Positions 7,562 through 59,494 of a stretch of 64,000 nt of DNA are shown piece by piece. The DNA is from Mucilaginibacter arboris (GTDB lineage: Bacteria > Bacteroidota > Bacteroidia > Sphingobacteriales > Sphingobacteriaceae). The DNA lies in the NCBI RefSeq assembly GCF_009754915.1, contig NZ_WPIK01000002.1:186001-250000 (forward strand). The letters are read 5' to 3'. The notes beneath the pieces were generated by a model. That model did not search any database, was not told the DNA's origin, and saw nothing but the letters and a program-made list of their open reading frames with translations. Both the position numbers and the translations under genes were made by a program. The stretch's first letter is position 1; every line of letters starts with the position of its first letter.

Positions 7562-7601
7562 CCTGGTAAAAGAAGCATGCTTCTTTTACCAGGCTTTTTT
7601 T
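7562..7601 (+). terminator. Intrinsic terminator made of a perfect 32-bp palindrome
   Basis: 7562-7593 is a perfect palindrome, CCTGGTAAAAGAAGC/ATGC-centred, giving a stem of at least 14 bp, followed by C and seven T (7595-7601). It starts 5 bp after the GH125 stop and should end the GH2-GH125 transcript. The stem sequence GGTAAAAGAAGCAT is the same as the inner arm of the repeat family found from 13 kb onward, but with the two halves joined back to back. Confidence 0.85.
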
Positions 7602-10069: not shown

Positions 10070-12361
10070 ATGACTTTAAAACCGGTCCTGAATAAATTTT
10101 TACTGCTCTTAAGCGCTTGTATCATTTTTGCTGATGTAGGTTACTGCCAGCAAAAGCCTGTTCAAGTTATCAAAGAGCAACAGCAGGAAAACCTGTGCAA
10201 ATATGTTGATCCGTTTATCGGAACAGGTTTTCACGGGCATGTTTTTATGGGCGCCAATGTTCCTTTTGGTGCCGTGCAATTAGGCCCAAGCAATATTTCG
10301 CAGGGTTGGGACTGGTGCTCCGGTTATCATATTTCCGATTCTACCATAGTCGGTTTTCAGCATACCCATTTAAGCGGGACCGGAATAGGCGATCTGGGCG
10401 ATATTTCTTTGATGCCTACAACCGGACCCATCAAAACGATGAAAGGCAGTGCGAAAGATTTGCAAAGCGGTTATGTTTCGCTGTTCAGTCACCAGGATGA
10501 AACCGCCCGCCCAGGTTATTATGCCGTAAAATTAAAACGATATGATATTGCTGTAGAATTAACGGCGACTAAGCGTGTGGGCTTTCATCAGTACACATTC
10601 CCTAAAAGCGGCCAGTCGCATATTGTGATTGACCTGCAGGAAGGTTTGGGATGGGATAAGCCAACGGAAACCTCCATCAAACAGGTTAACGAAACCACAA
10701 TTACGGGTTACCGTTATTCCACCGGCTGGGCGAAAGACCAGCGCGTTTATTTTGCGGCCGTTTTTTCAAAACCGGTTAAAGATTTTTCGGTTTACGATGG
10801 TTTAGCTGCTAAAACAGGTACATCTTTAACAGGTGAAAAAGTAAAAGGCGTACTTACTTTCGCTACCAAGGAAGGTGAAAAAGTACTGGTAAAAGTAGGC
10901 ATCTCGCCGGTTAGTACCGAAAACGCGATGATGAACATCGGGGCAGAAATTCCCGGATGGAATTTTAACCAGGTTGTTGCGGCTGCAGGACAAGCCTGGA
11001 ATAAAGAGCTGCAAAAAGTGGAGATTAAAACATCCAGCGAAAAGCAAAAACGTATTTTTTATACGGCTTTGTACCACACGATGATCGCGCCGTCAATATT
11101 TAATGACTACAATGGCGATTATTGGGGCACCGATAAAAAAGTGCATGCAAAAGCAGCATTTACCAACTATACTACATTTTCTTTGTGGGATACTTACCGT
11201 GCTTTAAACCCGCTTTACACGCTTATCCAGCCAGAAAAAGTTAATGATATCATCAATACCATGCTTGCCATTTACCAGCAGCAGGGCAAGCTGCCGGTCT
11301 GGCATTTAATGGGGAATGAAACCAATACGATGGTAGGTTACAGTGCCGTACCTATTGTGGCCGATGCATATTTAAAAGGGTTTAAAGGCTTTGATGCGAA
11401 CCTGGCTTATGAAGCGGTGAAAGCCAGCGCGATGCGCAATGACGGCGGCTTAAATTATGTGAAAAAGCTGGGTTATATACCGGCAGACAGCCTGGTTGAA
11501 TCTGTGGCAATGGGTTTGGAATACAGTATTGATGACTGGGGAATTGCAGCAATGGCCAAAAAAATGGGAAAAGCGGCCGATTACCAATACTTCAGCAAAC
11601 GGTCGGAAAATTACCGCAACTATTTTGATCAGCAAACCAATTTTATGCGTGGAAGATTATCGGCAAGCGAATGGCGCACGCCTTTTAGTCCCTTCGAATC
11701 GCGACACCGACGTGATGACTATACCGAAGGGAACGGCTGGCAATACACCTGGCTCGTTCCGCAGGATGTAAAAGGATTGATTGCTTTACAAGGCGGCGAA
11801 AAGCTCTTCATTCAAAAACTCGATTCGCTGTTTATAGTTAAGGGAAGCTTGGGGAAAGAAGGATCGCCGGATATTTCCGGCCTGATCGGTCAATATGCAC
11901 ATGGCAATGAGCCATCGCACCATATTACTTACTTGTATAGTTATGCCGGGCAGCCCTGGAAAACAGCCGAGAAAGTACGTTTCATCATGGATAATTTTTA
12001 TACCGATCAGCCGGATGGCATTATCGGAAATGAAGATGTCGGGCAGATGTCGGCCTGGTATGTTTTGTCGTCCTTAGGGTTTTACCAGGTTAATCCGGCA
12101 AGCGGTGTTTACGTATTTGGCAGTCCGCTTTTTAACGAAGCCACCGTACAACTGGCAGCAGGTAAAAAGCTGCACATCATTGCTAAAAATAACGGCGCTA
12201 AAAACATTTATATCCAGAATGCTTCTTTTAACGGTAAAAAATATACACGTACATTTATCACTTACCAAGAGCTGGCGCAAGGCGGCCAGCTGGTGCTGCA
12301 AATGGGCAGCAAACCTAGTGCAAGCTGGGGCAGTTTGGCGAAGGACCGGCCGCAGCTATAA
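10070..12361 (+). CDS. GH92 alpha-mannosidase
   Basis: A calcium-dependent exo-alpha-mannosidase of family GH92, 763 residues. The signal peptide ends near YCQQ. The mature N-terminus has the family hallmark YVDPFIGTGFHGHVFMGANVPFGAVQLGP, followed by HTHLSGTGIGDLGD. The (alpha/alpha)6 barrel carries the candidate general acid E417 in MGNETNTM and the candidate base/metal region E655-D656 in GNEDVGQMSAWYVLSSLGFY. GH92 members mostly remove alpha-1,2- or alpha-1,3-linked mannose from high-mannose N-glycans; linkage cannot be read safely here. It is the last gene of the N-glycan block. Confidence 0.93.
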   Translation: MTLKPVLNKFLLLLSACIIFADVGYCQQKPVQVIKEQQQENLCKYVDPFIGTGFHGHVFMGANVPFGAVQLGPSNISQGWDWCSGYHISDSTIVGFQHTHLSGTGIGDLGDISLMPTTGPIKTMKGSAKDLQSGYVSLFSHQDETARPGYYAVKLKRYDIAVELTATKRVGFHQYTFPKSGQSHIVIDLQEGLGWDKPTETSIKQVNETTITGYRYSTGWAKDQRVYFAAVFSKPVKDFSVYDGLAAKTGTSLTGEKVKGVLTFATKEGEKVLVKVGISPVSTENAMMNIGAEIPGWNFNQVVAAAGQAWNKELQKVEIKTSSEKQKRIFYTALYHTMIAPSIFNDYNGDYWGTDKKVHAKAAFTNYTTFSLWDTYRALNPLYTLIQPEKVNDIINTMLAIYQQQGKLPVWHLMGNETNTMVGYSAVPIVADAYLKGFKGFDANLAYEAVKASAMRNDGGLNYVKKLGYIPADSLVESVAMGLEYSIDDWGIAAMAKKMGKAADYQYFSKRSENYRNYFDQQTNFMRGRLSASEWRTPFSPFESRHRRDDYTEGNGWQYTWLVPQDVKGLIALQGGEKLFIQKLDSLFIVKGSLGKEGSPDISGLIGQYAHGNEPSHHITYLYSYAGQPWKTAEKVRFIMDNFYTDQPDGIIGNEDVGQMSAWYVLSSLGFYQVNPASGVYVFGSPLFNEATVQLAAGKKLHIIAKNNGAKNIYIQNASFNGKKYTRTFITYQELAQGGQLVLQMGSKPSASWGSLAKDRPQL

Positions 12362-12568: not shown

Positions 12569-13162
12569 ATGAGTACTGACAGGCAAAACGATGAGATTTT
12601 ATTTGACCTTTTAAAACAAGGCCATATAGCTGCTTATAAAGAGATTTATGACCGTTATAAATCTATACTCTATATTCATGCCTATAAAATGCTGCAGGAT
12701 GAAGAAGAGGCGAAAGATGTGGTTCAGGAGGTTTTCATCATATTATGGAATAAACGCACAGAAATCAATTTAAAAACTTTTTTAGCGGCTTATTTATATA
12801 AAGCAGTAAAAAACCGCATCTTAGACCTGATTGCCAATAAAAAGGTGAGGTTAAAATATGAAGGTTCTTTGCAAAGCTTTCTGTTGCAGGGAGAGTGCTT
12901 AACTGATTATAATGTTAGGGAAAAAGAATTGCGTATCATCATTGAAAGAGAAATATCAAGCCTGCCAGCTAAAATGCGTACCGTATTTGAGCTAAGCAGA
13001 AAAGAACATCTGCCTTACAAACAGATAGCCCAAAGGTTAAATATTTCTGATAAAACGGTTAAAAAGCAAGTGAACAATGCCATAAAAATACTCCGGCTTA
13101 AATTAGGTTCACTTTTTATTCTGCTCCCCTTTATAGAAAAGTTGTTTAAACTTTTTAGCTGA
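12569..13162 (+). CDS. ECF RNA polymerase sigma factor
   Basis: A 197-residue extracytoplasmic-function sigma factor. Region 2 is visible in AYKEIYDRYKSILYIHAYKM and EEAKDVVQEVFIILWNKR, and region 4 in LPAKMRTVFELSRKEHLPYKQIAQ and NISDKTVKKQVNNAIKILR. It should activate the SusC/SusD locus starting at 15604 once released by the FecR-like anti-sigma at 14302. Unusually, 1.1 kb of repeats separates it from that FecR. Its last codons (KLFKLFS) are encoded by GTTGTTTAAACTTTTT (13141-13156), identical to the outer arm of the repeat family, so the C-terminus may have been rewritten by an insertion. Confidence 0.92.
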   Translation: MSTDRQNDEILFDLLKQGHIAAYKEIYDRYKSILYIHAYKMLQDEEEAKDVVQEVFIILWNKRTEINLKTFLAAYLYKAVKNRILDLIANKKVRLKYEGSLQSFLLQGECLTDYNVREKELRIIIEREISSLPAKMRTVFELSRKEHLPYKQIAQRLNISDKTVKKQVNNAIKILRLKLGSLFILLPFIEKLFKLFS

Positions 13163-13171
13163 AATCTTCTG

Positions 13172-13282
13172 ATGCTTCTTTTAGCACTATAAAATTAGCC
13201 TCGCCCTGCCCTCTCCAAAGGAGAGGGAGCTGCCGGTACAAAAGTTAATGGCTTGCAGATTTTTAGGTGATAAAAGAAGCAT
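13172..13282. repeat. Paired inverted-repeat element, type A core (copy 1)
   Basis: An element of 111 bp bounded by ATGCTTCTTTTA and the complementary TTTTTAGGTGATAAAAG-AAGCAT arm. The core holds the hairpin CCTCTCCAAAGGAGAGG and a GTACCGGCAG-type stretch. Its core is nearly identical to the element at 29292-29404 but in opposite orientation. Its left outer arm (GTTGTTTAAACTTTTT, 13141) overlaps the end of the sigma factor gene. Confidence 0.85.
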
Positions 13283-13365
13283 ATCAAACATCCTGAACAA
13301 AATTTAAACAAGCTTTTAATTAAGAAGTTGTTTAAACTTTTTTCCGGCCCTCTTTTTTAGGGTTG

Positions 13366-13564
13366 ATGCTTCTTTTATCACCTAAAAAATGTTAACCATT
13401 GTTTTTTTGATCGATTAAATGTAAACACCAATTTTTACCCGTTAAATCACTAAAGACCTATAAGGTTTTGAAAACCTTATAGGTCTTTAGTGATTTTGTG
13501 TTTGTTTTCCGGTACCAGTTCAACACGCTATAGATCTTCTATTTTTAGGTGATAAAAGAAGCAT
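13366..13564. repeat. Paired inverted-repeat element, type B core with nested palindrome
   Basis: An element of 199 bp with full 23-bp arms at 13366-13388 and 13542-13564. The type B core begins TGTTAACCATTGTTTTTTTG and contains AACACCAATTTTTACCCG. A 49-bp palindrome (13446-13494) is inserted in it. The outer arm GTTGTTTAAACTTTTT lies at 13327. Confidence 0.87.
13446..13494. repeat. Perfect palindrome with one-base centre, nested in a repeat
   Basis: Two 24-bp arms, ATCACTAAAGACCTATAAGG then TTTT and its complement, meet at a single G (13470). Shorter versions of the same palindrome occur at 51230-51260 and 56394-56430, each also inside a type B element. This points to a separate small mobile hairpin that targets or hitchhikes on the larger repeat. 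Confidence 0.85.
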
Positions 13565-13651
13565 ATCAAATATTTTGAACAAAATTTAAACAAGCTTTTA
13601 ATTTATGAAGTTGTTTAAACTTTTTTTTCTTGCCCTCTTTTTTTTGGGTCG

Positions 13652-13674
13652 ATGCTTCTTTTATCACCTAAAAA
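13652..13674. repeat. Solitary left arm of the repeat family
   Basis: A complete 23-bp arm (ATGCTTCTTTTATCACC plus TAAAAA) preceded by the outer arm GTTGTTTAAACTTTTTTTT (from 13610). No matching right arm follows; an unrelated inverted repeat starts about 70 bp downstream. It looks like a half element or one split by an insertion. Confidence 0.75.
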
Positions 13675-13746
13675 TGTTAGGGCCTGTTTAAATTTGATCC
13701 TTTGGTTTGATGCCCTTTGATGCCCTCATTTTTTAAATGTTTTTGG

Positions 13747-13953
13747 TTTTTTGGCTAAAGCCTGTTGCCGGTTATCCTTTATCCACGGCCTGAAGGCCGT
13801 GGCAACTGCATTTGGACCTGACTGGGCGTTCTGTCCGTACAAGGCCAATTCAGCATTAGTAAATAAAAATCTTTCGTAAAACCAAGCTTTAAAATTGCCA
13901 CGGCCTTTAGGCCGTGGGTTGCATAAACACAGGCAGCGGCTTTAGCCAAAAAA
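13747..13953. repeat. 207-bp inverted-repeat element with two GC-rich hairpins
   Basis: The ends are exact complements: TTTTTTGGCTAAAGCC (13747-13762) and GGCTTTAGCCAAAAAA (13938-13953). Just inside them are two 20-bp hairpins, CCACGGCCTGAAGGCCGTGG (13783-13802) and CCACGGCCTTTAGGCCGTGG (13898-13917), themselves arranged as inverted copies. It has no credible ORF. This is a different family from the ATGCTTC repeats and appears inserted into the array of those repeats; the form is MITE- or BIME-like. Confidence 0.75.
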
Positions 13954-14024
13954 GGGACACACAAAAATTACGGAATATATTTTAAACAAGCCCTGAATGA
14001 TTAGTTTTTGATTTTTTAGGTTTG

Positions 14025-14047
14025 ATGCTTCTTTTATCACCTGAAAA
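14025..14047. repeat. Solitary left arm of the repeat family
   Basis: ATGCTTCTTTTATCACC followed by TGAAAA. It lies 55 bp before the next full element and has no partner. Its left flank includes TTTAAACAAGCCC, the outer-arm motif. Confidence 0.65.
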
Positions 14048-14079
14048 TGCTGGTCATCGGGTTTTGATTTTTTGTGTTG

Positions 14080-14166
14080 ATGCTTCTTTTATCACCTAAA
14101 AATGTTAACCATGTTTTTTTGATTGATTAAATGCAAACACCAATTTTTACCCGGTAAAAGAAGCAT
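14080..14166. repeat. Paired inverted-repeat element, type B core without palindrome
   Basis: A compact 87-bp copy with left arm 14080-14102 and right arm ending GGTAAAAGAAGCAT at 14166. The core matches the 13366 and 56343 copies but lacks their nested palindrome, so it serves as the empty-site reference. GTTTAAACAAC at 14209-14219 marks the right outer arm, 83 bp before the FecR start. Confidence 0.85.
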
Positions 14167-14301
14167 CAGTATATCCAAGGATCTGTACAAATTTAAACGG
14201 GCCCTAAAGTTTAAACAACTTCTTATATAAAACTTATTTTTTCTACTACCAGCATCTCTTTTGTCCGTCATATCCCGAAAAGGTATCAATATCTTTTCTT
14301 T

Positions 14302-15462
14302 ATGAAGAACCAGGAAGCGAAAGCGTTATTAGAAAAATACAAATCAGGGAATATATCTGCTGAAGAGCAGGCCCGGTTAGACAGTTGGTACCTGTCGGAA
14401 GCAAAATCAAAACAAAGTACAGTGGATTATGATGCAATGGAAAGGCACCTGGATGCAATCTGGGCCAGCTTGCCAGTTCATCATCAACAGAAAACAGTTG
14501 TCGTTAAAAGTATATGGGGCAGATGGATGGCTGCTGCCGCCATCCTGATTGCACTTTCGGTAGGATTATATTTCTATGCCAACCGTAAATCCGAATATTA
14601 TGCATCCAATACAACCAATCATCCAAAACAGGAAATTACGCCTGGAGGAAATAAGGCAATTCTAATCTTAGCCGATGGATCTAAAATTGATTTGAATACT
14701 ACTTCAAATGGTGAGGTTGCTAAACAAGGAAGTTTAACAATTACCAAGGCCACAACTGGCCAACTGATCTATAAAACATTAGGCCCTAAAGGTAAGTATC
14801 CCCAAGGAACATTAGCTTTTAATACCGTTGAAACTCCAAAAGGAGGGCAATATGCAATAAACCTGCCCGACGGAACCAGGGTTTGGTTAAATGCAGCCTC
14901 ATCTTTAAAATTCCCTACACAATTTGCAAGTAATGAAAGGAGGGTAGAATTGACCGGAGAAGGCTATTTTGAAGTGGCAAAAGATAAAACCAAGCCCTTT
15001 AAAGTGGTTACAGATAAACAGGAAATTGAAGTATTAGGTACACATTTTAATGTAAACGCCTACACAGATGAAAATGCAATAAGAACAACCCTGCTGGAAG
15101 GCAGCGTAAAGATCACGGTAGGGCGTACAAACCAAACAGTTCAACAATCAGTGATACTTAAACCTGATCAGCAAAGCGCTTTAGGCCGATCAGGCATAAC
15201 TATAAAGGACGTGGATACAGAAGATGCCGTAGCCTGGAAAAATGGCTACTTCAATTTCAATGAGAATATTGAAAGTATCATGAAAAAATTATCCAGGTGG
15301 TACAATATAGAGGTTGTTTACGAGACCAGCAAAGACCCCGATTTGTTATTTGCCGGTAAGGTATCGCGCTTAAAAAGTATCAATTCTGTTTTAAATATTA
15401 TTGAAGCAACAGGAAACGTTCATTTCAGGATCGAAGGAAGGAGGGTAACGGTGATGAAATAA
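14302..15462 (+). CDS. FecR-family anti-sigma factor
   Basis: An inner-membrane anti-sigma factor of 386 residues. A cytoplasmic N-terminal anti-sigma region (1-70) precedes one transmembrane helix (about 74-92, AAAAILIALSVGLYFYA). The periplasmic FecR domain contains LPDGTRVWLNAASSLKFP and GEGYFEVAKDKTKPF, and a DUF4974-type C-terminal domain ends the protein. It should hold the sigma factor encoded at 12569 until the STN domain of the SusC at 15604 signals substrate binding. SusC follows after 141 bp. No second candidate sigma lies between. Confidence 0.92.
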   Translation: MKNQEAKALLEKYKSGNISAEEQARLDSWYLSEAKSKQSTVDYDAMERHLDAIWASLPVHHQQKTVVVKSIWGRWMAAAAILIALSVGLYFYANRKSEYYASNTTNHPKQEITPGGNKAILILADGSKIDLNTTSNGEVAKQGSLTITKATTGQLIYKTLGPKGKYPQGTLAFNTVETPKGGQYAINLPDGTRVWLNAASSLKFPTQFASNERRVELTGEGYFEVAKDKTKPFKVVTDKQEIEVLGTHFNVNAYTDENAIRTTLLEGSVKITVGRTNQTVQQSVILKPDQQSALGRSGITIKDVDTEDAVAWKNGYFNFNENIESIMKKLSRWYNIEVVYETSKDPDLLFAGKVSRLKSINSVLNIIEATGNVHFRIEGRRVTVMK

Positions 15463-33884: not shown

Positions 33885-33977
33885 ATGCTTCTTTTAGCAC
33901 TATAAAATTTGCATTGCCCTTGCTATCGGTATAAAAAACAAATGGCCTTGCAGATTTTTAGGTGATAAAAGAAGCAT
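33885..33977. repeat. Paired inverted-repeat element, short type A core, first of two
   Basis: A 93-bp copy: left arm ATGCTTCTTTTAGCACTATA, core with GCATTGCCCTTGCTATCGG, perfect right arm ending 33977. Its left flank (33843-33884, TCAGATCCTTCGATATTCTC) is the reverse complement of the right flank of the element at 43371. The stretch 33662-33842 between the HTCS stop and this flank holds no ORF or clear terminator. Confidence 0.87.
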
Positions 33978-34043
33978 CGAAAAAAGAAGCCGGTAAAATT
34001 TGAACAGGTTTAAACTTGTATAATCTATATCAAAAAAAACCTA

Positions 34044-34137
34044 ATGCTTCTTTTAGCACTATAAAATTTGCATTGCCCTTGCTGCCGTTACAAAAAGCAA
34101 ATGGGTCTTACAGATTTTTAGGTGATAAAAGAAGCAT
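34044..34137. repeat. Paired inverted-repeat element, second near-identical copy
   Basis: A 94-bp copy in the same orientation as 33885-33977, with the same core order and an identical right arm, 67 bp away. It ends 55 bp before the GH3 start. The two copies look like a recent tandem duplication. Confidence 0.87.
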
Positions 34138-54034: not shown

Positions 54035-54598
54035 ATGACTGTACTGGATAAACGTACCGATATTGAATTAACGAAACTATTGAAGTCGGGGGACCATATT
54101 GCCTTTACAGAGCTTTACCATCGCTATTGGAAACTTTTATTAGGCATTGCATACCATTATACCAAAGACAAACCTGTGGCCGAAGAAGTTGTTCAGGAAG
54201 TGTTTGTGGGTATATGGAACCGAAGGGAACTGATAGAAATACAGTCTTTTAAAGCCTATATGGCCACGGCAGTTAAGTTTTCTGTTTTTAAATATATCCA
54301 CCGGGAAGCACACAGGAAATTATTGGCCGAAACGCAATATCAGCAGGAAACCGTTTCTATGGACGATAAACTGATCGAATCCCGTTTTTTGCAAGAATAC
54401 ATTAACGGAATTGTGGAACAGTTGCCCGACAAATGCAAACTGGTGTTCAAATACAGCAGGCAGCAAGGAAAAAGCACCTCCGAAATTGCCAGCCAGATGG
54501 GCATTGCCGAAAAAACAGTTGAAGCGCACCTTACCAAAGGGCTAAAAACACTTAAAGCGGCCCTTAAAAGTTCGGGCATCCTGTTCTTTGTGTTGTAG
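54035..54598 (+). CDS. ECF RNA polymerase sigma factor
   Basis: A 187-residue ECF sigma factor; ATG 54035 is preferred to the adjacent TTG. Region 2 spans AFTELYHRYWKLLLGIAYHY and PVAEEVVQEVFVGIWNRR; region 4 spans LPDKCKLVFKYSRQQGKSTS and MGIAEKTVEAHLTKGLKTLK. The probable partner anti-sigma is the FecR at 58283, but an inverted GH27 gene and a sulfatase lie between them. It should drive the STN-SusC/SusD pair starting at 59756. Confidence 0.92.
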   Translation: MTVLDKRTDIELTKLLKSGDHIAFTELYHRYWKLLLGIAYHYTKDKPVAEEVVQEVFVGIWNRRELIEIQSFKAYMATAVKFSVFKYIHREAHRKLLAETQYQQETVSMDDKLIESRFLQEYINGIVEQLPDKCKLVFKYSRQQGKSTSEIASQMGIAEKTVEAHLTKGLKTLKAALKSSGILFFVL

Positions 54599-54639
54599 TG
54601 CATCACCTTTACTATCTTCTCCCATAAACCTAAAATGCA

Positions 54640-54732
54640 ATGCTTCTTTTATCGGCAAAAAATCAGTGTTTAGATTGATAATTGATAAAAAAGCGTAAGG
54701 CCGCCTGTTTTTTTAGGTGATAAAAGAAGCAT
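54640..54732. repeat. Paired inverted-repeat element (93 bp)
   Basis: Left arm ATGCTTCTTTTATCGGC at 54640, perfect right arm 54710-54732. It lies between the convergent sigma factor (+) and GH27 (-) genes, so here it is in a 3' region for both. No other terminator is seen in 54599-54900. Confidence 0.83.
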
Positions 54733-54900
54733 GGAAGATAAGTAGGCAACGATTGCAGCAGCATTAAAAGTTGTTACTGCAAAGATGATATTACCCTTTG
54801 GTGCCAGGTTGATGTTACAAATAAAAACTAAAAGCAAAATCCGCCGGTGCGTGCCGGTTTTACTTCTAAAGTGATGGTAATTTTATCAATTTCTGGATGA

Positions 54901-56079
54901 TTAATCGGCTTTTAGAACAATGATGCCATGTTTAGGTAGCGTAAATTGTTTAATTCCCCCTGCCTTTCCAAGTTTTTTATGAAGCCACAGGTCTCTTAAT
55001 TTGCTTTTGGTACTAATACCTATTTTTTCGGCGTTAAAGTTAAAAATTACCTCTTTTTCGCCCCGGTTCATAATAGCGATAGCTTTTGATTTGCCATGAT
55101 CAGCGCCTAATGGCTTAACCCAAACTTCTATAGGCTTATCGGTTAAAACTTTGTAGGCTTGCTTAAAACCGGTATCCTGATTTAAGGCGATCAGCTCTTT
55201 ATTGGTCAAGATTTCAATGGTTTGTTTAGACATGCTACGCAAATCGTTGCCTGCCAGTAAGGGTGAATTTAACATGCACCACATAGAGAAATGCGTTTTA
55301 TCCTCATCATAGCTCATCCCTCTGCCTACCTGCAGCATATCCATATCATTGTAATGGCCGGGCGACGAATATTTCGCCAAATCAGTATCGATATCGATAA
55401 TTTTTAGAATGGATCCAAAATCAGCACTGATATCACCTGATATGCGCCATGAATCTGCTTTATTGATCACCCACTTTCCGGGAAACTGCCAGCGGCAAAC
55501 GTTAAAAACGATGTTGCTGTCGATACCCTTGACCGCGTTTATGATTGGCATATAAGTATTTTCCTCGTCCAGCTTCATCTTTTCTGCGCCGCACCAGTCC
55601 ACCTTCAAAAAATCGAACCCCCATTCTTTAAAGAATAGGTTACAATCTTGCGGAACATGACCATAAATACCGGAGCCTATGCCGTTTTTGTCCTTATCAT
55701 AAATGGAGCCGCAGGTATTTTTACCCGCATCGGTATAAATACCTGCTTTCAGCTTTTTGCTATGGATATAATCGACCAACAATTTCATACCTGATGGGAA
55801 TTTTGCTTTGTTTACAAACAGTTTTCCCGAAGCATCCCTGCCACCAAAATAGCCATCATCAATATTGATAAAACGATAGCCGGCTTTATATAATCCCGAA
55901 GCAATCATTGCGTCGGCTTGTTCACGTATCATTTTTTCATCGATATTGACACGGAAATTGTTCCAGCTGCTCCAACCCATGATCGGTGCTTTTTTCTGCT
56001 GTGCACACAAAAATGAGTTCGAAATGCACAATAAGATGAACAGTATTAATACCGACTTTAATGGAATGGCAAAATTCAT
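54901..56079 (-). CDS. GH27 alpha-galactosidase
   Basis: A 392-residue exported GH27 enzyme, the only - strand gene of the window. The signal peptide ends at FLCAQ. The barrel opens with APIMGWSSWNNFRVNIDE, and INIDDGYFGG follows. The nucleophile is D161 in FLKVDWCGA and the acid/base is D216 in WRISGDI. An all-beta C-terminal domain completes it. It cleaves terminal alpha-galactose, or alpha-GalNAc in some members. Its inverted orientation between the sigma factor and the rest of that locus suggests insertion or a local inversion. Repeat elements lie on both sides. Confidence 0.93.
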   Translation of the reverse strand: MNFAIPLKSVLILFILLCISNSFLCAQQKKAPIMGWSSWNNFRVNIDEKMIREQADAMIASGLYKAGYRFINIDDGYFGGRDASGKLFVNKAKFPSGMKLLVDYIHSKKLKAGIYTDAGKNTCGSIYDKDKNGIGSGIYGHVPQDCNLFFKEWGFDFLKVDWCGAEKMKLDEENTYMPIINAVKGIDSNIVFNVCRWQFPGKWVINKADSWRISGDISADFGSILKIIDIDTDLAKYSSPGHYNDMDMLQVGRGMSYDEDKTHFSMWCMLNSPLLAGNDLRSMSKQTIEILTNKELIALNQDTGFKQAYKVLTDKPIEVWVKPLGADHGKSKAIAIMNRGEKEVIFNFNAEKIGISTKSKLRDLWLHKKLGKAGGIKQFTLPKHGIIVLKAD

Positions 56080-56245
56080 AATTGGTTATTAAAGTTAAAT
56101 TTTTCAGTTTTCAAATATATAACCTTTAACCGATGGGCCACCTGTATAACCCTGCCATTTGAAATTACTTATTGCCCGTACAGGATAAGCTGTTAGGAAG
56201 AGAATATTTCCTTTCAGATCGCATCTTGACAAAAAATTATAACGA

Positions 56246-56533
56246 AGTTGTTTGAACTTTTTTTTCTGCTCCTCTTTTTTAGGGCCGATGCTTCTTTTAT
56301 CACCTAAAAATGTTGGTCCTTAGGTTTTGTTTTTATGGGCCGGTGCTTCTTTTATCACCTAAAAAATGTTGACCATTGTTTTTTTGATCCACTAAAGACC
56401 TATAAGGTTTTCAAAACCTTATAGGTCTTTGATTAAATGTAAACACCAATTTTATCCGGTAAAAGAAGCATGGGCACCAAACCTGGGCATGCTGGAGGAC
56501 CAAATTGAAATGGGTACCAAAAAGTTTAAACAA
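56246..56533. repeat. Composite repeat cluster: solitary arm plus full element
   Basis: Bounded by GTTGTTTGAACTTTTTTTT (56247) and AAAGTTTAAACAACC (to about 56533). It contains a solitary left arm (56288-56310), a full element (56343-56471, first base changed to G) with a type B core, and the nested palindrome 56394-56430. The remaining parts of the gap 56080-56673 are A/T-rich; 56536-56673 should hold the sulfatase promoter but no motif is certain. Confidence 0.84.
56394..56430. repeat. Nested 37-bp palindrome
   Basis: AAAGACCTATAAGGTTTT meets its complement at a single C (56412). It interrupts the type B core between TTTTTTTGATC and GATTAAATG, which are contiguous (TTTTTTTGATTGATTAAATG) in the element at 14080. 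Confidence 0.85.
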
Positions 56534-56673
56534 CCTCAACATCTGCTTAGCGTTTTGTCAAAAAAATAAAAAAATATTTAACCCGACTAAGGGTAAACCC
56601 TGCCTTTAGGGTACAATATGTCAATTGTGGTCAAAACACAATAACCTCAATTGAGAAGAAGCCTAAAAACAAC

Positions 56674-58239
56674 ATGATGAGAATAACCAAAACCTTGTTT
56701 AACAATAGTTTAAGATCTGCCTTTTTTGGCGTCTTGTTTTTTGTCCATTTAGCTGAGGCTGATGCACAGCAAAAGGCACAAACCGCAAAAAGGCCTAATA
56801 TCGTGATCATCATTTCTGATGACCACGCCTACCAGGCTATCAGCGCCTACGGCAGCAAGCTGATGCAAACACCCAATATAGACCGTATTGCCAAAGGTGG
56901 TGTTACGTTTAACAAAGCTTACGTTACCAATTCTATTTGCGGGCCCAGCAGGGCCGTAATCCTTACCGGGAAGTACAGCAACAAAAATGGGTTTAAGGAT
57001 AATGAAAATTCCAGGTTCAACGGCGATCAGGACTCTTTCATCAAACAGTTGAAAGCATCCGGATACCTTACCGCCTGGATCGGGAAATGGCACCTGGAAA
57101 GCCAGCCACAGGGCTTTGATTACTGGGAGATACTTCCCGGCCAGGGCAGTTATTACAATCCTGATTTTTTAACAATGGACGGCGGTAAAAAGAAAGTGGA
57201 GGGTTATGTTTCTAACATTGTGGAGGATGAGACGGAAAGCTGGCTGGACAAACGCGATAAAAGCAAGCCTTTTTGCCTGGTGATCGGCCACAAAGCCACC
57301 CACCGCACCTGGCTGCCGGATACTTGCGATATGGGCAGGTTTGACAAAACAACCTTCCCTTTGCCGCATGATTTCTATGACAATTATGCCAACCGGATAG
57401 CTGCCCAGCAGCAGGAAATGAGCATTGCTAAAGATATGCAAATGGGCTACGACCTGAAAATGCTGCAGCCAGGCGAAGAAGAAGGCACAATAAACCGGAT
57501 GAATGCCGCCCAACGACAAAAATTTGATGCCTATTACAAACCGATCCAGGCAGACTTGAAAGCCAGGCACTTATCCGGGAACGCTTTAGCAGAGTGGAAA
57601 TACCAGCGTTACATGCGCGATTACCTGAGCACGGCCACATCCCTGGACCGCAATATCGGCCGTACCCTGGATTATCTGGATAAGAACCACTTAACAGAAA
57701 ACACGATCGTGATCTATATGTCTGATCAGGGTTTTTATTTAGGCGAGCATGGCTGGTTCGACAAGCGGTGGATGTATGAAGAATCCTTCAGGACACCGAT
57801 GGTAATGCGTTATCCCGGTGTGATCAAACCCGAAACCAAGTCTGAGGATTTTGTGATGAACGTTGATATTGCGCCTACCATGCTGGATGCGGCTAAAGTG
57901 GCCATTCCAAAAGACATGCAGGGCGAATCTATGCTGCCCTTGTTCAATAACAAAAAAGCCAAAGGCCGCGATGAAATGTATTATCATTATTATGAAAATG
58001 GAGAACATGCGGTTTCCCCTCAGTTTGGTGTCAGGACCAAACGGTATAAGCTCATCCGTTTCTATAAAAGGGTGAACAACTGGGAGTTGTACGACCTGCA
58101 AAACGACAAAGGAGAGATGAACAACCTGTATGGCAAAAAGGGCTACGAAAAGATCACGGCAGAACTGAAAAACGAATTGAACAAGCAGATCGACAAGTAC
58201 CAGGATGACGATGCAAAACTTGTTTTAACCCAGAAATAA
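56674..58239 (+). CDS. Type I sulfatase (Cys-type)
   Basis: A 521-residue periplasmic sulfatase with signal peptide ending at ADAQ. Metal ligands are in VIIISDDHAYQAIS and IVIYMSDQGFYLGEHGW. The formylglycine Cys is C89 in SICGPSRAVILTGKYS. The SDDHAYQAIS/SDQGFYLGEHGW pattern and length recall S1 families such as iduronate- or heparan-type sulfatases, but no subfamily is claimed. It is the first + strand gene after the inverted GH27 and precedes FecR by 43 bp. Confidence 0.92.
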   Translation: MMRITKTLFNNSLRSAFFGVLFFVHLAEADAQQKAQTAKRPNIVIIISDDHAYQAISAYGSKLMQTPNIDRIAKGGVTFNKAYVTNSICGPSRAVILTGKYSNKNGFKDNENSRFNGDQDSFIKQLKASGYLTAWIGKWHLESQPQGFDYWEILPGQGSYYNPDFLTMDGGKKKVEGYVSNIVEDETESWLDKRDKSKPFCLVIGHKATHRTWLPDTCDMGRFDKTTFPLPHDFYDNYANRIAAQQQEMSIAKDMQMGYDLKMLQPGEEEGTINRMNAAQRQKFDAYYKPIQADLKARHLSGNALAEWKYQRYMRDYLSTATSLDRNIGRTLDYLDKNHLTENTIVIYMSDQGFYLGEHGWFDKRWMYEESFRTPMVMRYPGVIKPETKSEDFVMNVDIAPTMLDAAKVAIPKDMQGESMLPLFNNKKAKGRDEMYYHYYENGEHAVSPQFGVRTKRYKLIRFYKRVNNWELYDLQNDKGEMNNLYGKKGYEKITAELKNELNKQIDKYQDDDAKLVLTQK

Positions 58240-58282
58240 AAGCATTTCAAGATCATCTTTACCTCTTTTCTGGAAAAAGCGC

Positions 58283-59494
58283 ATGCAACAAAAAGAAATA
58301 AATTCCTTAATTCAAAAATACCTGCACCATACAGCGTCTGCCAAAGAGCGTGAACGTTTGCTGGAGTGGTATAGGTCATCCTCTTTAGAGGAAGTAGAAT
58401 GGCTGGCAGATGAACCGGATGAGGAAGATTTGGTAAAGGCAAGGATGTATAACCATATCCGGCAGCAAACTTTCTCTGCAGAAAAGCCACCTGTGGTTTC
58501 GAAAGCTTATTTCAAACTGCAGTGGCTACAGCTGGCTGCTGCCGTGCTTCTGGTTACGCTGTTTATAAGTATTTTTTTGTTCTTCAGCAACAGCAACAAC
58601 CGTTTTCAGGCTGTCATCGGCAAAAAGCACAGGAGCATTATTGCGCCTGGTACCAACAAAGCTGTTCTTACGCTTGCAGATGGTTCAGAAATAGACCTTG
58701 ACGTTTCCCGTTCCGGGCCAATTGCCAGGCAATCCAATATCTCTATCACCAAAACCACAGCAGGCGAAATAATTTATACTGCTCAAAACCCTAATCCAAA
58801 AACTGCAGGCAATACATCAGTTTTTAACACCATCACAACGCCAAGGGGCGGAAAGTTCAAAATAGAACTGCCAGATGGCACAAAAGTATGGCTAAACGCT
58901 GCTTCGTCCTTAAAATATCCAACCCAGTTTACAAGGAAGGAGCGAAAGGTTGAACTATCGGGCGAAGGCTATTTTGAGGTAGCAAAAAATAAAGCAATAC
59001 CTTTTAAAGTTACCACGGCTTCTTCTTTAAAAAGCGGGGCCGGACAGGAGATCGAAGTTCTCGGCACGCATTTCAACATCAACGCTTACGCAGATGAAGG
59101 AGCTGTTAAAACCACTTTGCTGGAAGGAAGTGTCCGTGTCAGGCCAACAGGACCTAAAATAAGCGCTAACGGTTCTGGTGAGGTAGTGCTTAAACCAGGC
59201 CAGCAATCTGTACTGAAAGCACAAGCTCTGGTGGTTGAAAATGCAGACACAGAAGAAACATTGGCCTGGAAGAACGGAAACTTTATTTTTAATAATGAGG
59301 CGTTGAAGTCGGTCATGTCTAAAATATCCAGGTGGTACGATGTGGATGTTTTTTATGAAAAGGATTTTAACAACATCAGGATAGGCGGTTCTATTTCCCA
59401 GGAGAAGGACCTGTCTGCGGTGCTGGACCTTTTGCAATTGACCAGAAAAGTAAAATTCAAGACCGAAGGAAGGAGGGTTACCGTTATGCCGTAA
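58283..59494 (+). CDS. FecR-family anti-sigma factor
   Basis: A 403-residue anti-sigma factor: cytoplasmic N-terminal region, one transmembrane helix (about 81-101), periplasmic FecR domain (LPDGTKVWLNAASSLKYP, GEGYFEVAKNKAIPF) and a DUF4974-like end (FNNEALKSVMSKISRWYDVD). It is clearly paralogous to the FecR at 14302 along its length. It should pair with the sigma factor at 54035 and receive the signal from the STN domain of the SusC at 59756. Confidence 0.92.
   Translation: MQQKEINSLIQKYLHHTASAKERERLLEWYRSSSLEEVEWLADEPDEEDLVKARMYNHIRQQTFSAEKPPVVSKAYFKLQWLQLAAAVLLVTLFISIFLFFSNSNNRFQAVIGKKHRSIIAPGTNKAVLTLADGSEIDLDVSRSGPIARQSNISITKTTAGEIIYTAQNPNPKTAGNTSVFNTITTPRGGKFKIELPDGTKVWLNAASSLKYPTQFTRKERKVELSGEGYFEVAKNKAIPFKVTTASSLKSGAGQEIEVLGTHFNINAYADEGAVKTTLLEGSVRVRPTGPKISANGSGEVVLKPGQQSVLKAQALVVENADTEETLAWKNGNFIFNNEALKSVMSKISRWYDVDVFYEKDFNNIRIGGSISQEKDLSAVLDLLQLTRKVKFKTEGRRVTVMP

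Follow-up and report, generated by a model that had tools for sequence, protein, structure and literature searches.

Why should an extracytoplasmic function (ECF) sigma factor gene be separated from its fecR anti-sigma gene by more than a kilobase of stacked repeats? The question is raised by a 64,000-nucleotide stretch of the genome of Mucilaginibacter arboris (contig NZ_WPIK01000002.1, positions 186,001 to 250,000; here called the window, and numbered from its first letter). Both genes are confirmed by Pfam and lie 1,139 bp apart, in agreement with the separation of about 1.1 kb given in a preliminary description of this DNA. That description also held that such genes are normally adjacent, which is borne out by 64 other sigma–fecR pairs measured with the same script, where the median gap is 109 bp and the largest 418 bp (the pairs came from 74 loci, and loci without a recognisable pair contributed no gap value). 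The repeats have an outer arm, O (GAAGTTGTTTAAACTTTTTT), and an inner arm, I (GATGCTTCTTTTATCACCTAAAAAT). The gap itself is of less importance than the inner arm, a signal found throughout the genus about every 2 kb, also within genes.

The core of the inner arm is the 12-mer ATGCTTCTTTTA. Its abundance was assessed in unbiased sequence, namely the whole of contig C1 of the same genome (397 kb) and 400 kb of another member of the genus, G002. It is the commonest non-simple 12-mer in both, with 168 copies in C1 and 111 in G002, where about 0.09 would be expected from base composition. Genome-wide there are 1,947 copies in M. arboris (982 on the plus strand and 965 on the minus strand) and 2,114 (1055/1059) and 1,118 (598/520) in two other genus members, while the reversed pattern, counted as a control, is found 0–1 times per strand in the three. 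Outside the genus there are 0–10 copies in each of 148 other genomes of the family, and 0–14 in each of 197 other genomes of a sample of the phylum, five of which are also among the 148. Similarly, a 23-mer of the inner arm (at most 2 mismatches) has 448, 323 and 204 copies in three genus members and none in 38 other genomes. Many of these inner-arm copies are isolated, with unrelated flanks. A 17-mer match is present once in each of two viral contigs.

Relatives were also searched for dialect words of their own. No genome-wide dialect word was found in samples of 40 kb per genome from 17 other genomes, or in 20 kb of G006. The only word with a high count outside the genus, in G020, was rejected as a dialect on finding that it belongs to a local tandem array: G020, from another genus, has a 66-bp repeat present 18 times (L236, 741–1863), which contains AGGGCAATAACA.

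A dense, dispersed and genus-specific word might be a Chi-like recombination or nuclease-stop site. Chi sites are short and G-rich, whereas the present word is long and AT-rich, has an A-tract and commonly forms inverted pairs. It also lacks strand bias, both in the genome-wide counts above and in 50-kb bins of one contig, which are roughly balanced (replichores were not mapped). A Chi site or other strand-oriented site is rejected on this strand balance, and the probability that we leave to it is very small.

The copies are placed both between and within genes. In C1, 63 of the 168 lie wholly within genes, 15 are at the edge of a gene and 90 are intergenic; 33 of the 111 in G002 are in genes (open reading frames, ORFs, were taken from a simple ATG-to-stop, longest-first script rather than a gene finder). 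Shuffling of synonymous codons leaves a mean of 3.1 and a maximum of 6 copies in C1, against 64 that the shuffle script counts in the gene sequences, and a mean of 1.0 and a maximum of 4 in G002. Codon usage is thereby ruled out as the cause of the genic copies. The genic copies in C1 run sense in 30 cases and antisense in 33, and are read in several frames (e.g. as ASF, KEA, KRS and MLL), and this use of several frames and both orientations rules out selection on the protein or the mRNA as the cause.

The signal extends beyond the core. Its consensus is AT[G/A]CT(TC or GT)TTTTA, followed by YCRSC, one free base and AAAAAT; in isolated copies YCRSC is at +12 to +16 and AAAAAT(T) at +18 to +24. 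Few single-base variants are common, chiefly ATACTTCTTTTA. Two further words, ATGCTGTTTTTA and ATACTGTTTTTA, are also common, with intermediates being rare, and the same extension follows all four main variants. Together the four make up 274 sites in the 397 kb of C1 (118 genic) and 251 in the 400 kb of G002 (104 genic), a density of roughly 0.65 per kb in both sampled genomes. The window has 54 such sites, 5 of them genic.

How the sites evolve can be seen by comparing orthologous positions in M. arboris and G002, for which 106 kb was aligned at 80% identity. Among 41 exact M. arboris sites, 20 are identical in G002, 19 are substituted and 2 are gapped (one site is counted twice, in two alignments), whereas only 11.7% of random 12-column windows are identical. 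Aligned identity is 0.89 in the core and 0.83 in the A-tract, compared to 0.72–0.74 in the flanks. When the four variants are treated as a family, 36 of 65 M. arboris sites are identical, 12 carry another word of the family, 15 have lost the word by substitution and 2 have gaps. On the gap-free alignments, an origin of the genic copies by insertion is rejected. At the comEC locus, two sites within the gene still carry words of the family in all three species, and both arms of one intergenic inverted pair are retained in the three, with a changed loop; other sites at this locus are lost, altered or not aligned in one relative or in both.

These results bear on the proposal that only mobile repeats are involved, the word having spread as the inner arm of hairpin elements or miniature inverted-repeat transposable elements (MITEs), with the isolated copies as their remnants. 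Such elements, with 3-bp duplications, do carry the word, and many intergenic copies are in repeated pairs. However, C1 has all its copies, genic ones included, and yet no O–I element; gaps are present at just 2 of the 41 orthologous sites; and point changes separate the four main variants, which have one extension in common. We therefore consider this proposal improbable.

We propose instead that the genus-wide word probably works like a DNA uptake sequence (DUS) or uptake signal sequence (USS), read by a putative receptor that is independent of a pilus. The argument is one of likeness: the word matches DUS/USS in its over-representation, its presence on both strands, the genic copies in several frames and orientations, the extended consensus of core and AT-rich tail, the bias among mismatches, the inverted pairs at the 3′ ends of genes, and the change in place within alignable regions. 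The inner arm of the elements would be one carrier of a signal that lies on both strands, within genes and in inverted pairs after genes. A competence system would have a DNA-binding protein, on the surface or in the periplasm, with a preference for DNA that carries the word, and transformation with self-DNA would then cause the word to spread and persist through molecular drive, including within mobile elements. A wider proposal, to which we give an even chance, is that Bacteroidota have an uptake-sequence system of their own, with a pilus-independent machine and several words that are interchangeable within one genome. MITEs would bring the word to accessory regions poor in genic copies, of which the window would be an example, tagging them for sharing.

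A number of observations weigh against an uptake role. Known DUS/USS systems rely on type IV pili, and the PilC family (PF00482) is absent from three of three genus members (other pilus genes were not searched). With no PilC-type gene found, membership of the DUS/USS class is not claimed; the claim is of DUS-like behaviour. PF18942, a domain of a Riemerella transformation protein, is also absent from the genus. ComEC, DprA and HHH_3 proteins are present, and are not specific; ComEC and DprA are near-universal and prove nothing. No genus-specific receptor candidate came from searches with PF00482, PF03772, PF18942, PF12836 and PF02481. Intergenic density in C1 is about 11 times the genic density, and repeated hairpin elements hold many of the intergenic copies. 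Only 1 of the 46 exact cores in the window is wholly genic, which at the rate of C1 would occur by chance with a probability of 0.0009. Even spacing, which is possible for uptake words, is not significant when compared to random. Finally, conservation may be overstated, since only alignable sequence entered the counts.

The copies in the window are mostly in intergenic inverted pairs. The window has a SusC/TonB-type receptor, and appears to resemble accessory gene clusters for polysaccharide use.

It is worth adding that the three genus members each have, immediately upstream of comEC and in the same orientation, a gene for a 682-residue protein (L229, 5824–9996; L230; L231), with 78–81% identity. 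The protein has no match in Pfam. Large frames near comEC in other genomes carry HHH_3 (e.g. G003, C54). The protein is a possible candidate for a ComEC partner in DNA uptake.

The main rival to an uptake role is that the word binds a genus-specific protein that organises or segregates the chromosome (a nucleoid protein, condensin loader or occlusion factor), and is kept by selection on chromosome architecture. This would suit some 2,000 copies distributed over the chromosome on both strands, with a conserved core and A-tract and with no constraint from reading frame, in a genus that has no PilC-type pilus gene. Known chromosome sites (parS, matS, the FtsK-orienting polar sequences KOPS, and SlmA sites) are fewer, or are biased by strand or region. 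Unlike these, the present word has a roughly balanced orientation in 50-kb bins of C1. The inverted pairs at 3′ ends and the switching between variants at orthologous sites also suit uptake words better. We therefore regard a chromosome-protein site as unlikely, though less so than the other alternatives considered for the word.

The position of the copies relative to genes suggests a further alternative, in which the word is an arm of a standard terminator hairpin that has been copied after genes. Intergenic copies in C1 are closest to a 3′ gene end in 73 of 104 cases, at a median distance of 19 bp, and 56 of the 274 four-variant sites are in inverted pairs less than 120 bp apart. Some of the pairs have short loops, and one is kept in three species with different loops, all as might be expected of terminators. 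On the other hand, more than one third of the copies are genic, in both orientations, and 122 of the 168 copies in C1 have no other exact copy within 200 bp. Moreover, known uptake words also form terminator pairs, according to the excerpts available of one study (PMC3630211), so that termination would be a secondary use. As the general function of the word, termination is highly improbable.

The elements that carry the word were analysed in 61 stretches of the M. arboris genome (the window plus 60 loci), selected by listed matches to element DNA and to the core pattern. They contain 35 units with paired outer arms, of which 22 have identical 3-bp flanks, whereas randomly matched flanks agree in 9.2%. 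The O arm (at most 2 mismatches) has 110 copies in the M. arboris genome, 17 and 11 in two other genus members, and none in three other genomes of the family. With terminal inverted repeats, 3-bp target duplications of fixed length, short non-coding sequence and many copies, the dispersed elements are MITE-like, and were amplified mainly in the M. arboris lineage. They differ from MITEs in that their loops carry other palindromes and the genus-wide word. Their parent transposase was not identified, and no search was made for a transposase with these ends.

We can now return to the gap, whose features are listed in Table 1. It consists of three O-I-loop-I′-O′ units together with a pair of additional I arms, a palindrome of 53 bp and an inverted repeat of 207 bp, and the anatomy described earlier (three full elements, two half elements and a separate 207-bp inverted repeat) is therefore correct. 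The start of the repeats was placed at 13163; the stack is real, but its first unit begins at approximately 13138, inside the sigma gene. The 19-mer inner arm (at most 3 mismatches) has 31 matches in the window and none in 100 shuffles, and the O arm (at most 3 mismatches) 19 times where 3.3 are expected. By analogy with the rest of the family, the gap would be a stack of MITE-like elements with outer arm GAAGTTGTTTAAAC and 3-bp target duplications, one arm of which would now supply the last codons of the sigma factor. The kind of element represented by unit C (REP207 mark) has 11 other copies in the M. arboris stretches. The copy in the gap is one of the 13 of 35 units that have no 3-bp duplication, for which nested or stacked copies could account. 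No close ortholog of this sigma factor, at which an empty site might be seen, was found in two other genus members (best E 1.2e-20 and 1.3e-32). Rfam families gave no match in the window at gathering scores.

Parts of the gap are found elsewhere. The centre of the 53-bp palindrome (CTATAAGGTTTTGAAAACCTTATAG) is a widely shared palindromic repeat, with matches in genomes of other genera and families (G012, G014, G019, G031, G033). A stretch in the loop of unit A (13189–13232), which contains CCCTCTCCAAAGGAGAGGG, matches several genomes of other genera (G015, G027, G029, G037). At another locus (L151, 4223–4740) ten inner arms are arrayed about 55 bp apart, a period equal to that of the two half elements in the gap.

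Table 1. Coordinates of the sigma–fecR locus, of the repeats in its gap, and of other copies of the core in the window.
Feature	Position	Strand	Remarks
ECF sigma factor gene	12569..13162	+	Pfam sigma r2/r4; last 7 codons (KLFKLFS) and stop from repeat arm
MITE-like unit A	13138..13315	+	O-I-loop-I′-O′; right outer arm degenerate; ends approximate
ATGCTTCTTTTA core 1	13172..13183	+	
ATGCTTCTTTTA core 2	13271..13282	-	
MITE-like unit B	13324..13597	+	53-bp palindrome in loop; right outer arm degenerate; ends approximate
ATGCTTCTTTTA core 3	13366..13377	+	
53-bp near-perfect palindrome	13444..13496	.	terminator-like on + strand
ATGCTTCTTTTA core 4	13553..13564	-	
MITE-like unit C, 616 bp	13607..14222	+	both outer arms good; holds 207-bp inverted repeat and two extra inner arms
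ATGCTTCTTTTA core 5	13652..13663	+	
207-bp inverted repeat	13747..13953	.	two CCACGGCCT..AGGCCGTGG palindromes
ATGCTTCTTTTA core 6, half element	14025..14036	+	
ATGCTTCTTTTA core 7, half element	14080..14091	+	55-bp direct repeat of core 6
ATGCTTCTTTTA core 8	14155..14166	-	
FecR anti-sigma gene	14302..15462	+	Pfam FecR, FecR_C
Tight inverted core pair	7567..7588	.	just 3′ of gene ending 7556; terminator-like position
Isolated core in coding sequence	12219..12230	+	the window's sole exact core lying wholly in a gene
Two inverted core pairs, 81-82 bp spacing	33885..34137	.	between genes; typical of window
Inverted core pair	54640..54732	.	directly after the window's second ECF sigma gene (54035-54598)

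The 3′ end of the sigma gene, AAG TTG TTT AAA CTT TTT AGC (KLFKLFS) and the stop, lies in or beside the O arm, and the earlier suggestion that the last seven codons are repeat-derived holds. None of 26 related sigma factors with a readable C-terminus (37 non-self loci were tried) ends in KLFKLFS, and so no repeat-free ortholog with this ending was seen among them. An effect of the repeat-derived tail on the sigma protein is unlikely, because the tails of related sigma factors vary anyway. The case is unusual, since just 1 of 70 element ends is entered by a reading frame of at least 100 codons. The second ECF sigma gene of the window (region 54035–59494) is separated from a FecR-like gene at 58283 by two other genes.

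Lower read-through across the gap is plausible, because the gap folds strongly and holds a terminator-like stem. The RNA of the gap is predicted to be far more stable than shuffled sequence (z −13.2 and −8.3), and at 13447–13493 there is a stem of 20 bp with an imperfect T-rich tail (TTTTGTGTTT). Terminator matches number 4 against 1.5 expected, 3 of the 4 being registers of one stem. A sigma-70 scan, which does not cover Bacteroidota promoters, gives promoter-like sites in the gap at the rate expected by chance. The earlier suggestion that the hairpins could reduce read-through between sigma and fecR and alter the sigma/anti-sigma ratio is tentative, and we would not favour it; it would be a local effect, compatible with an uptake role for the word.

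If the word is indeed an uptake word, it would represent a separate origin in Bacteroidota, in a genus without the PilC pilus gene, and would imply that recognition of self-DNA evolves with other machinery. A defined ligand of 12–25 bp would then be a handle for finding the Bacteroidota DNA receptor, and suggests a practical test in the genetics of these bacteria, by including the word in DNA used for transformation. Otherwise, a genus-specific signal of about 2,000 copies needs another explanation, likewise unreported in the literature searched (open-licence PMC). That literature gave no convincing case of an uptake sequence in Bacteroidota and no uptake word for Sphingobacteriaceae, and does not report the 12-mer as a signal, its letters occurring in three unrelated papers. 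In the excerpts available of the papers cited here, Pasteurellaceae and Neisseriaceae are the only groups for which uptake of sequence-tagged DNA is described.

The comparison within Bacteroidota is with Riemerella (Flavobacteriaceae). Transformation in Riemerella is described as proceeding without pilus homologs, and a novel machinery has been proposed (PMC8459023, in part). The PilC family is likewise absent from the present genus. R. columbina prefers its own DNA, and a k-mer search found AT-rich simple words such as AAAAATAAAA (301 against 56 expected), whose function the authors left open (PMC7965970, in part). The excerpts of that work hold nothing like a 12-mer at about 1,900 times its expectation from base composition.

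The USS of Haemophilus influenzae (Pasteurellaceae) has the 29-bp consensus aAAGTGCGGTnrwttttnnnnnnrwtttw, with 65% of copies in ORFs, as given in the excerpts available (PMC1939737). It resembles the present word in having a non-palindromic core with AT-rich stretches downstream, no orientation bias, and an uneven tolerance of single mismatches (same excerpts). It differs in that its sequence is unrelated, and in that the present word, known from sequence alone, belongs to a member of the Bacteroidota without PF00482 PilC and has a smaller genic share (38% in C1).

In Neisseria, the receptor ComP acts on a pilus; the PilC-family pilus assembly gene is missing in the present genus. The DUS of Neisseriaceae is otherwise similar, with thousands of copies per genome, related variants and inverted pairs that form terminators (PMC3630211, in part), and in N. 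gonorrhoeae 35% of the copies are in ORFs (PMC1939737, in part). The word itself is different from those of the Neisseriaceae dialects, and here four variants coexist in one genome and swap at orthologous sites.

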